Assembly (NCBI RefSeq): GCF_030464885.1
Contig: NZ_JALPRJ010000008.1
Span: forward strand, 111,131-175,130
Length of the DNA stretch: 64,000 nt
DNA from: Caballeronia sp. SEWSISQ10-4 2
GTDB taxonomy: Bacteria; Pseudomonadota; Gammaproteobacteria; Burkholderiales; Burkholderiaceae
Direction of reading: 5' to 3'
How positions within the stretch are numbered: position 1 is the first letter of the stretch; the number at the start of each line of letters is the position of its first letter. The position numbers and the translations under genes are program-made. This document shows, piece after piece, positions 35,618 to 46,454 of this stretch. The notes under the pieces were generated by a model. It was not told where the DNA came from, did not search any database, and saw only the letters and a list, made by a program, of their open reading frames with translations.

Positions 35618-36733
35618 TCAAGCCGTAGCCGACAGCGCCTTTTCAAGCGCTGCGATAAATGCTTCGTTTTCTTGCGGCAAGCCAATCGTGATACGCAGCC
35701 ATGGAAACAAGCCATAGTTGGCAACCGGCCGCACGATCACGCCTTGCTTGAGCAATTCGAGGTTCACGCGTTGTCCGGCGGCGTCGTCATGACCCACGCG
35801 CACCATCACGAAGTTGCCGTGCGATGGTACATATTCCAGACCGAGTTTGTCGAAGGCTTCAGTCAGGCGGCGATAACCCGCCGCATTGATCTCTGCGCTC
35901 TTCGCGAGAAACGCGGTGTCCTTCAACGCGGCAATCGCAGCGGCTTGCGCCAGCGAATTGACGTTGAACGGCTGACGCAGGCGATTGAGCAGATCGGTCA
36001 GTTCCGGCTGCGCGATGGCAAAGCCCACGCGCAATCCGGCTAGCCCAAACGCCTTCGAAAATGTCCGCGACACGAGCAGATTCGGATAACGGCGCACCCA
36101 GTCGATGGAATCGTAGCGCTTGTCCTTCGCCAGATATTCCGTGTACGCCTCGTCGAGCACGATCGCCACGTGCCGCGGCACGCGCGCGATGAACGCCTCG
36201 AGCGCCGGGCCTTCGATAAATGTGCCCGTCGGATTATTCGGATTCGCAACGAACACGAGACGCGTGTCGTCGGCGATGCTCTGAAGCATCGCATCGAGAT
36301 CGTGACCGTATTTCACGGCCGGCACGACGATCGCACGCGCGCCCAAACCCTGTGTAGCGAGTGCATACACGGCGAACGAATACTGCGAATAGACAATCGA
36401 CTGGCCCTTCTCGACGAACGCATGCGCGGCGATTTCGAGGATGTCGTTGCTGCCGTTGCCGAGCGTGACCCATTCGGGCGGCACGCCATAACGCTCGCTT
36501 AGCGCGGCCTTCAAATCGAAACCGTTCGAGTCCGGATAACGGCCGAGTTCCGCCACGGCTTGCGCCATCGCGAGCTTGGCGGATTCAGGCATGCCGAGCG
36601 GATTTTCATTCGACGCGAGCTTCACGATGTCCGCTTCGTTCAGTCCGAATTCACGCGCCACTTCCGAGATGGGCTTGCCGGCAATATAAGGCGCGATCGC
36701 GCGCACGTAGGAAGGGCCGAATTGCGATGTCAT
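35618..36733 (-). CDS. hisC: Histidinol-phosphate aminotransferase (HisC2 position)
   Basis: A 371-residue PLP aminotransferase with the lysine motif SRTFSKAFGLAGLRVGFAIA, NPNNPTG, and LASNENPLGMPESAKLAMAQ at the N terminus. In the pheA-hisC-tyrA context this paralogue is usually credited with aromatic amino acid transamination as well as or instead of histidine synthesis. GGAG lies seven bases before the ATG. That ribosome binding site directly abuts the end of the HEARO element upstream. Confidence 0.92.
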   Translation of the reverse strand: MTSQFGPSYVRAIAPYIAGKPISEVAREFGLNEADIVKLASNENPLGMPESAKLAMAQAVAELGRYPDSNGFDLKAALSERYGVPPEWVTLGNGSNDILEIAAHAFVEKGQSIVYSQYSFAVYALATQGLGARAIVVPAVKYGHDLDAMLQSIADDTRLVFVANPNNPTGTFIEGPALEAFIARVPRHVAIVLDEAYTEYLAKDKRYDSIDWVRRYPNLLVSRTFSKAFGLAGLRVGFAIAQPELTDLLNRLRQPFNVNSLAQAAAIAALKDTAFLAKSAEINAAGYRRLTEAFDKLGLEYVPSHGNFVMVRVGHDDAAGQRVNLELLKQGVIVRPVANYGLFPWLRITIGLPQENEAFIAALEKALSATA

Positions 36734-36746
36734 CAGGGTCTCCGTG

Positions 36747-37134
36747 AAACCCCGGACTTCAGGCCGGGGAGGTAAGGAGACGGTTTTAACTCCGTCTCGT
36801 TAAATAGGTGACGGGCTTTCCACCCATCAGGGTCTTGCGACTCTGCCCGTAAGGGCCTAGTAACGCAGTCTTGCGACTCGCTCCCCTCGACAATGTTGTG
36901 CACCGGCATTTCGTCCCGATCCGTTTCGTACTTACCCTGTCGCTTGCCTGCAACCGGGACTTCCAGTGCCGGGGACTGAGGAAGCATCCCAGGGTGGGTC
37001 TTGAACCTATGCACAACGTAGCGCCCGCCCTACTCGGCAATGAAGTCCGGATTAAGCCATCCGGAGCGCTTAGTCTGGTCAACCCGAGCTCGCGGTATTC
37101 TGCAAGCTCCGCCATTCAGGGCGGGGTAGTTGAC
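36747..37134 (-). ncRNA. HEARO / IscB-type omega-RNA, stand-alone (no IscB gene)
   Basis: On the minus strand a structured region of about 388 nt begins with GTCAAC (37134-37129), which pairs with GTTGAC (37083-37078) to close a two-hairpin 5' domain. A TCCGGAT/ATCCGGA hairpin follows, then the core CACCCTGGGAT...CTCAGTCCCCGGCACTG (about 36962-36998). This core matches the characterised IscB omega-RNA of the HEARO class, which I recall as CACCCUGGGA...CCCAGUCCCCGGAACUG. The 3' part has stems GAGACGG/CCGTCTC and CCCCGG/CCGGGG. In IscB systems the guide is the sequence immediately 5' of the RNA, here 37135-37150 in the pheA-distal spacer. The frame where IscB should start is occupied by hisC, so no nuclease gene is present. 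Confidence 0.85.
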
Positions 37135-37164
37135 GTTTTCTCCAGCGTTTTTAAAGGGCTCAAC

Positions 37165-38247
37165 TCAACGAGCGCGCGGATACGAGCCGAGGATCTTGAG
37201 GAACTCCGCTTTTTTACCCAGTTCTTCGAGCGCGGCGGTGACCGGCGCGTCGTCGCGATGTCCTTCCACGTCGATATAAAAGTAGTATTCCCACGTGCCC
37301 ACGCGCGCAGGACGCGATTCAAAACGTGTCATCGATACCCCGTGACGCGCGAGCGGCTCCAGCAATTTCAGCAACGCGCCCGGCTCGTTCGCCACCGACA
37401 CGATCAGCGACGTCTGGTCGTAGCCGCTTACGCCCGTACGCTCTTTGCCGATCATCACGAAGCGCGTGCGGTTGTGCGGGTCGTCCTGGATCAGCGCGCT
37501 CACCACGCCGAGGCCGTAGTGCGTGGCCGCCCGATCGCCCGCGATAGCCGCAATAGTCGGATCGCCAACGGCAAGGCGCGCCGCTTCCGCGTTGCTCGAT
37601 ACCGCCTGGCGTGCAAGCGTAGGCGCGTTCGCGGTGAGCCAGTGCTGGCATTGCGCGAGGGCTTGCGGATGCGCGAACACGCGCGTGACGCCATTGAGCG
37701 TGCCGGATGCGGTGAGCAAATTGTGGTGGATCGGCAACGCCAGCTCGCCGCTGATCACGAGCGACGTTTGCAGCAACAAATCGAGCGTGCGCGATACGGC
37801 GCCTTCTGCGGAATTCTCGACCGGCACGACGCCGAATTCGGCGGCGCCGGCCTCAACCGAGCGAAACACTTCATCGATGGAAGGACACGGCACACCTTCG
37901 ATGGAATGTCCGAAATACTCGAACATCGCCTGCTCGCTGTAGGTGCCGACCGGACCGAGATACGCCGCGCGCAGCGTCTGTTCCAGCGCGCGGCTCGCGG
38001 CCATGATCTCGCGCCAGATCGAGCTGATGTGATCTGCCCCAAGCGGGCCTTCGCTCATCTCCTGAAGCCGCGCGATAACCTGCATCTCGCGCTCGGGACG
38101 AAACACCGGCGCGTTGAAATGCTTCTTCACCTCGCCCACTTCGAGCGCCACGGCGGCACGCTGGTTCAGCAGCGCGATGAGCTGCGCGTCGAGCGCATCG
38201 ATGCGTTCGCGCAGCGGTATGAGTCGTGAATTAAGGTCGTCGTCCAT
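37165..38247 (-). CDS. pheA: Bifunctional chorismate mutase/prephenate dehydratase (P-protein)
   Basis: A 360-residue protein: chorismate mutase domain (residues 1-90, LIPLRERIDALDAQLIALLN), prephenate dehydratase domain (from YLGPVGTYSEQAMFEYFGHS), and a C-terminal ACT domain with the phenylalanine-binding motif MTRFESRPARVGTWEYYFYI. It makes phenylpyruvate, feedback-inhibited by phenylalanine. The ATG at 38247 (MDDDLNSRLIPL) is the family start; an ATG at 38280 is also in frame. The HEARO element begins 30 bp after its stop. Confidence 0.95.
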   Translation of the reverse strand: MDDDLNSRLIPLRERIDALDAQLIALLNQRAAVALEVGEVKKHFNAPVFRPEREMQVIARLQEMSEGPLGADHISSIWREIMAASRALEQTLRAAYLGPVGTYSEQAMFEYFGHSIEGVPCPSIDEVFRSVEAGAAEFGVVPVENSAEGAVSRTLDLLLQTSLVISGELALPIHHNLLTASGTLNGVTRVFAHPQALAQCQHWLTANAPTLARQAVSSNAEAARLAVGDPTIAAIAGDRAATHYGLGVVSALIQDDPHNRTRFVMIGKERTGVSGYDQTSLIVSVANEPGALLKLLEPLARHGVSMTRFESRPARVGTWEYYFYIDVEGHRDDAPVTAALEELGKKAEFLKILGSYPRAR

Positions 38248-38312
38248 GCGTTGTATGAGATGAGTCGATCCGGCTTGCATGCAAGCATCGGATTGGGAGG
38301 CGAGGCCTGGGC

Positions 38313-46085: not shown

Positions 46086-46454
46086 GGGGGCGACCTGGTT
46101 TCGACAGGGGTTGCGAAGCGGCTAGGGCATACCGAGGACCCGTCACCTCGTAAATCAATGGGAAAAACGTAACTGCAAACGACGAAACGTTCGCACTGGC
46201 AGCCTAAGGGCCGCCTGCCTCTCCCTAGTTTACTGACGGACTAGAGTCGCAAGACCGGTAGCAATACCGCGAGAGGTCATATACGTCAGATAAGCCTTGT
46301 CGGCGTTGCGACGCCAAGGTCGAAAATTTAGTGAATCGCCGAAGCGAAGCGTGTTCGTCCGCGTCGCCAGGTTAAATCAAATGATAGAACTAAGTATGTA
46401 GAACTGGTCGTAGAGCGCTACTGGACGCGGGTTCGATTCCCGCCGCCTCCACCA
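46086..46454 (+). ncRNA. ssrA: Transfer-messenger RNA (tmRNA)
   Basis: The 5' GGGGGCGACCTGG pairs with the 3' GCCGCCTCC-ACCA to form the alanyl acceptor stem, and the T-arm GGTTCGATTCC precedes it. The resume codon GCA at 46175 opens the tag ANDETFALAA, stopped by TAA at 46205-46207. tmRNA rescues stalled ribosomes and marks their products for proteolysis. GATAAT at 46068-46073 is a plausible -10 box. Its 3' end is a classic integrase target and borders a decayed island. Confidence 0.98.

Follow-up and report, generated by a model that had tools for sequence, protein, structure and literature searches.

Introduction

Stand-alone omega-RNAs and gene-less relatives of IS605 are already known, and the locus described here resembles several such systems without coinciding with any of them. 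It shares with HEARO RNAs (Rfam RF02033), the omega-RNAs of IscB, the scaffold, the core motif, the presumed position of the guide at the 5′ end and an ATGA at the 3′ end, but it lacks an adjoining iscB and forms a 401-bp mobile element of its own. Weinberg, in 2009, reportedly noted HEARO insertion next to ATGA or GTGA, the former being the tetranucleotide found here. The stand-alone (trans-acting) omega-RNAs that Altae-Tran is said to have described in Ktedonobacter in 2021 likewise lie away from iscB, and beyond these we describe ends, empty sites, a start-codon target and a Shine-Dalgarno-like end. PATEs, non-autonomous IS200/IS605 elements reportedly introduced by Meers in 2023, have the same small, gene-less build, palindromic ends and absence of target duplication, whereas the element reported here carries an IscB-type omega-RNA and targets a start codon. 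Finally, IscB and TnpB insertion sequences of Burkholderiales and of enterobacterial plasmids have the same kind of right-end palindrome and an ATGA junction, but they encode the nuclease, and five IscB-type ends that were tested have no Shine-Dalgarno sequence.

Results

A 401-bp element carrying an omega-RNA between pheA and hisC

A cmscan search of the window (the whole 64-kb stretch of DNA that was analysed) places a HEARO RNA on the minus strand between pheA and hisC, with a score of 112.1 bits against a gathering cut-off of 83 (E 2.6e-22) and full coverage of model positions 1–211; no other Rfam family scores above its cut-off in this gap. The covariance search thus agrees with a sequence-only reading that had proposed a HEARO or omega-RNA here, and the stems named in that reading are present. 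Its statement that hisC occupies the place of the nuclease gene also holds: the gap contains no iscB, and hisC is the next gene after the RNA. Because iscB is missing, the locus falls outside the usual definition of an IscB locus. The same scan locates a tmRNA gene elsewhere in the window (46086–46454, plus strand, 204 bits).

Comparison of the pheA-hisC junction with the genus genomes delimits a stand-alone element of 401 bp without target duplication (Table 1). The ends are fixed because eight relatives have the same junction without the element, joined to the base. The right limit, previously placed at 37164, lies at 37134, and the last 30 bases (37135–37164) are host spacer, whose part adjoining the scaffold is the presumed guide. 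Guides of omega-RNAs are about 16 nucleotides long. The host flank that holds the presumed guide is identical over 44 bases to the empty site of one relative (G021), and the presumed guide includes the GGAGA found ahead of hisC in the empty allele. PMC9755519 likewise mentions a spacer region at the 5′ side of HEARO RNA.

Table 1. Features of the pheA-hisC region, in window coordinates
Feature	Position	Strand	Evidence
Complete non-autonomous element, 401 bp, GTCAACTACC...GGAGACCCTG	36734..37134	-	empty sites and five complete genome copies
HEARO / omega-RNA scaffold	36875..37134	-	RF02033, 112.1 bits
Presumed guide, in the host DNA that adjoins the scaffold on its 5′ side	37135..37150	-	analogy with known omega-RNAs
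Hairpin GAGACGG / CCGTCTC inside the element	36777..36798	-	sequence; also predicted by folding
Right-end palindrome CCCCGGCCTGAAGTCCGGGG, of a kind common to IscB and TnpB elements	36750..36769	-	sequence; related ends compared
GGAGA resembling a Shine-Dalgarno sequence, at the element end and 5 bases from the hisC ATG	36739..36743	-	sequence; anti-Shine-Dalgarno duplex
Target ATGA (hisC start codon plus one base), TAM-like	36730..36733	-	follows 7/7 right ends in the window genome
hisC, intact, 371 aa	35618..36733	-	TIGR01141 above cut-off, 350 bits
pheA, upstream gene	37165..38280	-	chorismate mutase CM_2, prephenate dehydratase PDT and ACT domains

The element is mobile, carries a HEARO RNA of the IscB-guide kind and has no recognisable gene; the two frames that cross it, of 93 and 109 codons, are of a size that chance would give and match no Pfam family. 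Subterminal palindromes are present at both ends, CCGCCCTGAAGGGCGG on the left in four copies (with one mismatch in the window copy) and CCCCGGCCTGAAGTCCGGGG on the right. Precise insertion, the absence of target duplication, a short fixed sequence adjoining the element and palindromes at both ends are all features of non-autonomous IS200/IS605 elements. By score the RNA is a HEARO, and as far as its anatomy says, the unit resembles a guide-RNA-only element of the IS200/IS605 type.

Copies and empty sites in the genome and the genus

Among 58 genomes of the genus, eight relatives of the window genome (G021, G036, G034, G033, G030, G009, G050 and G043) have pheA-hisC without the element, query positions 1–196 and 598–771 being contiguous in each (the flank sequences were inspected for three). 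Two further genomes (G029 and G055) also lack it; here the alignment leaves out 1–2 bases where the flanks meet. Among the matches listed in the 57 other genus genomes (nine candidates scored per genome), none covers nearly the full length of the element.

The window genome (G000) is an incomplete assembly of 9.44 Mb in 212 contigs. It contains five complete stand-alone copies of 365–402 bp, the window copy and four more, as the sequence-only reading had suggested might be found by searching the genome. Three of the other four are 98% identical to the window copy and the fourth 89%, mainly through a deletion. Further copies are cut by contig ends (C58, twice, C78 and C82); the 7-kb contig C78 has element ends at both of its ends. 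An Rfam search finds six HEARO RNAs in this genome, five of them without iscB. The sixth is divergent; 56 bp beyond it an IscB frame begins, of which 42 residues are present before the contig stops, and another contig has a second IscB-type left end at its edge. Joining the flanks of copies recovers four further empty sites (C66, C135, C141 and C58R/C82R), and C58R and C82R are two halves of one insertion; the same joined-flank search found no empty site for C189 or for C58L/C78L, and C58L and C78L as halves of one insertion are unsupported in G021.

Above-cut-off HEARO RNAs occur in 11 of the 58 genus genomes. In the ten other than the window genome each adjoins an IscB match, some of them broken. 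Within the genus, stand-alone copies above the cut-off were seen only in the window genome. The stand-alone RNAs score 109–118 bits against 88–108 for the iscB-linked ones of the genus and thus show no sign of decay.

As to an IscB encoded elsewhere, a possibility that the sequence-only reading had raised, an IscB profile search of the contigs finds the fragment of 42 N-terminal residues and no complete iscB. Nor was an intact IS200-type TnpA found in the assembly, where two Y1 loci are present, one a broken IS200-type copy and the other a different Y1 protein that we take to be RAYT-like. Contig C78 also carries an IS605-like unit (L084), in which a TnpB-like frame accompanies a TnpA disrupted by a stop and a frameshift.

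Elsewhere, five species have an omega-RNA and an IscB at one shared site, with a similar 5′ flank (L026, L028, L029, L031 and G004:C64, whose HEARO loci are L016, L017, L014, L020 and L021). Of the three that were inspected, all have intact IscB frames and none has a right end that we could recognise; in the other two the frames are broken. The IscB at this site is possibly old, immobile and perhaps domesticated.

The elements adjoin ATGA and are associated with start codons

There are several features of the insertion sites to be considered. First, ATGA directly follows all seven right ends found in the window genome. It is intact in the empty sites, next to the presumed guide sequence, and if that guide is correctly placed, the anatomy of the empty site fits a TAM located 3′ of the guide-matched sequence, with ATGA as the candidate TAM. 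It resembles the NTGA TAM of an IsrB that is described in PMC9581776. Second, three of the seven right ends lie at gene starts, namely those of hisC, of an ABC-transporter ATPase (C82) and of a frame with a GNAT domain (C78). The other four are off gene starts, one of them inside a gene that is ImmA-like by eye.

Third, a similar position is seen in IscB-bearing relatives. The sample comprises 29 loci above the cut-off (11 from the genus and 18 from 399 genomes of the order), with readable junctions in 18. The ATG at the junction opens a frame of at least 80 codons in 17 of these, compared with 227 of 749 other ATGA or ATGG sequences in the same loci (30%; p 2e-8), noting that these are separate insertion sites of related elements, and that selection against insertions within genes also enriches for tolerated sites. 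If all unread loci are counted against the association, the figure is 17 of 29. Fourteen of the readable junctions are ATGA and four, all from G543, are ATGG, one of these being the exception. The unread loci are two that are cut or truncated (L025 and L208), one that is masked (L211), six without a recognised right end (L026, L028, L029, L030, L217 and L219) and two with broken frames (L031 and G004:C64), which share an old site with L026, L028 and L029. Where no end was recognised, a frame of 80 codons or more near the iscB stop occurs in one locus of the six, L029, and it starts with GTG. Three of the four G543 junctions (L209, L210, L212 and L223) open a long frame, and ATGG is a possible TAM variant.

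Fourth, a second sample was gathered with a right-end pattern of which ATGA is not a part. ATGA lies within 40 bases of 32 of the 33 matches, and 24 of the 31 that could be evaluated open a frame that reaches 100 codons, or 60 if it runs off the contig (p 9e-9). A wider pool of right ends gives 36 of 51 evaluable sites with an open frame, against 360 of 1323 in the control. Removed before counting were L097 and L104 (weak right ends and no junction ATGA), L140 (no ATGA), L173 and L175 (where the match stops short), L134 (at a contig end) and repeats of the same site. For comparison, an annotated stretch of 49.9 kb has 384 ATGA sequences, of which 18 are CDS starts and 80 are intergenic.

Finally, family scans took 40 of the 53 downstream frames, and 36 of the 40 proteins have a family match; these include HisC, TrpE, ObgE, LepB, YidC, NAD synthetase, and RlmL-like and CopA-like proteins. 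At seven annotated places in plasmids, a CDS starts exactly at the junction in three (trbC, traX and a DUF4400 gene; in the traX record the aligned part ends 8 bases before the ATG), two records list no genes there and two matches, in Klebsiella plasmids, stop short of the junction and were left uncounted for that reason. In enterobacterial plasmids, two TnpB elements (L171 and L172) run precisely up to the trbC and traX start codons and have GGAGG 7 bases upstream of them. Overall, most of the readable relatives look as if they sit at the apparent first codons of genes.

The element end and translation of the downstream gene

Insertion separates hisC from its own GGAGA, which lies 4 bases before the ATG in the empty allele, and the element end GGAGACCCTG presents another GGAGA at a spacing of 5 bases. 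The predicted duplex of this sequence with the anti-Shine-Dalgarno has an energy of -6.6 kcal/mol (shuffle p 0.004), although equally good binding occurs in 29 of 386 slices of the element. Scoring of 28 distinct right ends, assigned to the IscB type by their end sequence (IscB itself was searched for around loci L092–L140 and L171–L177), gave -4 kcal/mol or better in 20 of 23 ends that are not of the IscB type and in none of the five that are; the shuffle p is 0.05 or lower in 16 of the 23. Outside this set, the IscB ends of G416 reach a moderate -3.5 kcal/mol (p 0.03) and those of G543 -1.7 kcal/mol. The iscB stop codon overlaps the host ATG in six of the 18 readable IscB junctions (L225, L226, L218, L027, L222 and L207) and likewise in an annotated Polaromonas plasmid. 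One IscB copy (L213, 1022–3176) has a frame of 717 aa from the profile start, compared with 419 in sister copies, with an in-frame insertion of about 300 codons.

Folding of the isolated RNA predicts that the GGAGA is paired with the GTTTC just before it, and at least two of the four Shine-Dalgarno bases have a predicted unpaired probability below 0.1 in 19 of 22 distinct scored ends. Since the Shine-Dalgarno is predicted to be paired, it may be masked. The predicted hairpin may be opened by ribosomes or may reduce hisC expression, and GGAGAC could owe its conservation to the pairing itself. The right end of the element likely gives hisC a replacement ribosome-binding site.

The sequence-only reading was right that this is a HEARO without its nuclease gene, but it missed the mobile element with definable ends, the identity of the site as the ATGA of the hisC start, and the Shine-Dalgarno-like end at that codon. 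It had considered a role in cis as an alternative to mobility. With the site at the hisC start ATGA and a Shine-Dalgarno-like end to the element, mobility and a role in cis therefore need not be opposed, and in this family of elements the two may go together.

Stand-alone relatives outside the genus

The exact right-end pattern of the window copy had no match in a species collection, from which the window genome and very near ones may be absent, and a shorter common pattern was therefore used, which returned 32 loci. An Rfam search of 20 of these revealed three elements of 385–423 bp that contain only an omega-RNA and have the same kind of ends. One is in a Chromatiaceae bin (L109), where the frame at the junction has only 20 codons, and two are in Thiorhodospira sibirica (L123 and L117), at a chemotaxis gene and at trpE. 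Alignment of eight stand-alone RNAs shows changes on both sides in nine of 40 predicted pairs, in effect a single contrast between two groups. Thiorhodospira also has an apparently shortened derivative (L130, near 1602) in which both ends are kept and the omega-RNA core seems by eye to be gone; the Rfam search found no HEARO above the cut-off there. The same type of right end occurs at the start of a gene with a glucosaminidase domain (L103), in a context that is phage-like by eye, and four records of a phage collection have partial matches.

Discussion

We think it probable that the sequence between pheA and hisC is a mobile HEARO element that lies between the hisC ribosome-binding site and the ATG, supplies a replacement site and provides a guide for an IscB encoded elsewhere. 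The insertion falls immediately before the start codon, parting it from the presumed ribosome-binding site. A Y1 transposase (TnpA) acting in trans would read the lower strand and join the element next to TCAT, the complement of ATGA. Because elements at start-codon targets are oriented with the host gene, the host operon would transcribe the omega-RNA, here from the transcript of pheA and hisC, and the ribosome-binding region of that same host gene would serve as guide. IscB made elsewhere would use ATGA as its adjacent motif and cut the element-free allele, after which repair templated by an occupied copy would restore the element. Ribosomes would continue to translate hisC from the GGAGA at the element end, five bases ahead of the ATG; some IscB-bearing relatives seemingly achieve the same through overlap of the iscB stop with the host ATG. 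With somewhat less assurance, and by a narrow preference, we extend this to the whole branch (IscB-bearing, TnpB-bearing and guide-RNA-only), whose members would use the start codon as TAM, the ribosome-binding region as guide, transcription by the host operon, and either a built-in Shine-Dalgarno or an overlapping iscB stop.

Several other accounts deserve consideration. An ordinary conserved pheA-hisC spacer, which the sequence-only reading had named as the observation that would overturn it, or a known cis-regulatory RNA, would suit a location in an amino-acid operon; the first is ruled out by the empty sites, eight relatives lacking precisely these 401 bp, and with copies at unrelated sites and no other Rfam family above cut-off the account as a whole is close to negligible. 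A more serious but still unlikely account is that of a dead insertion, once mobilised and now carrying an inert omega-RNA, with the start-codon position reflecting only what selection tolerated. The lack of a complete IscB or intact IS200-type TnpA in the assembly and the four right ends off gene starts are in keeping with it. However, the stand-alone omega-RNAs score as high as the iscB-linked ones, the identity among copies (the fourth differing mainly by a deletion) suggests recent spread, and since contig breaks fall inside copies and inside iscB, the missing IscB is no proof of absence.

Two further accounts concern the RNA and the element end. The omega-RNA, with IscB or a nuclease-dead relative, could act in trans as a regulatory guide, tuning expression by binding to the leader of pheA-hisC or to other sites, as a presumed guide spanning the hisC ribosome-binding region might suggest; yet such a complex should not bind its own copy, because the element, rather than ATGA, comes after the guide sequence where the site is occupied, and we regard this as very improbable. 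Alternatively, the transposase could require a small DNA hairpin (GTTTC...GAGAC) in which the GGAG forms one arm, its Shine-Dalgarno match being a by-product. This arm does pair with GTTTC in many ends, even where the letters differ (GTTTCTC-GCG-GAGAAAC and GTTTCTC-GCG-GAGGAAC), but a hairpin need not contain GGAG, because the Burkholderiales IscB ends keep GTTT...AAAC without it (none of five has a Shine-Dalgarno match). Moreover, genes needed for growth stand after several such ends; ObgE, LepB and YidC are essential. We consider the hairpin explanation doubtful, and favor the mobile element with a replacement ribosome-binding site.

No start-codon targeting or Shine-Dalgarno sequence in IS200/IS605 ends was found among the papers listed by a literature search or in passages of PMC9581776, PMC9755519 and PMC13180657. 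Within that literature a start-codon target with a translation-rescuing end is unreported, and we make no claim of priority. If true, the proposed organization would explain why the adjacent motifs of the IscB type read ATGA or NTGA, how promoterless guide RNAs are expressed, and how the host is neither killed nor starved by elements that lie before genes such as obgE, lepB, yidC, hisC and trpE. It would also offer a model, directly open to testing, in which guide-RNA-only elements rely on a nuclease and a transposase supplied in trans.
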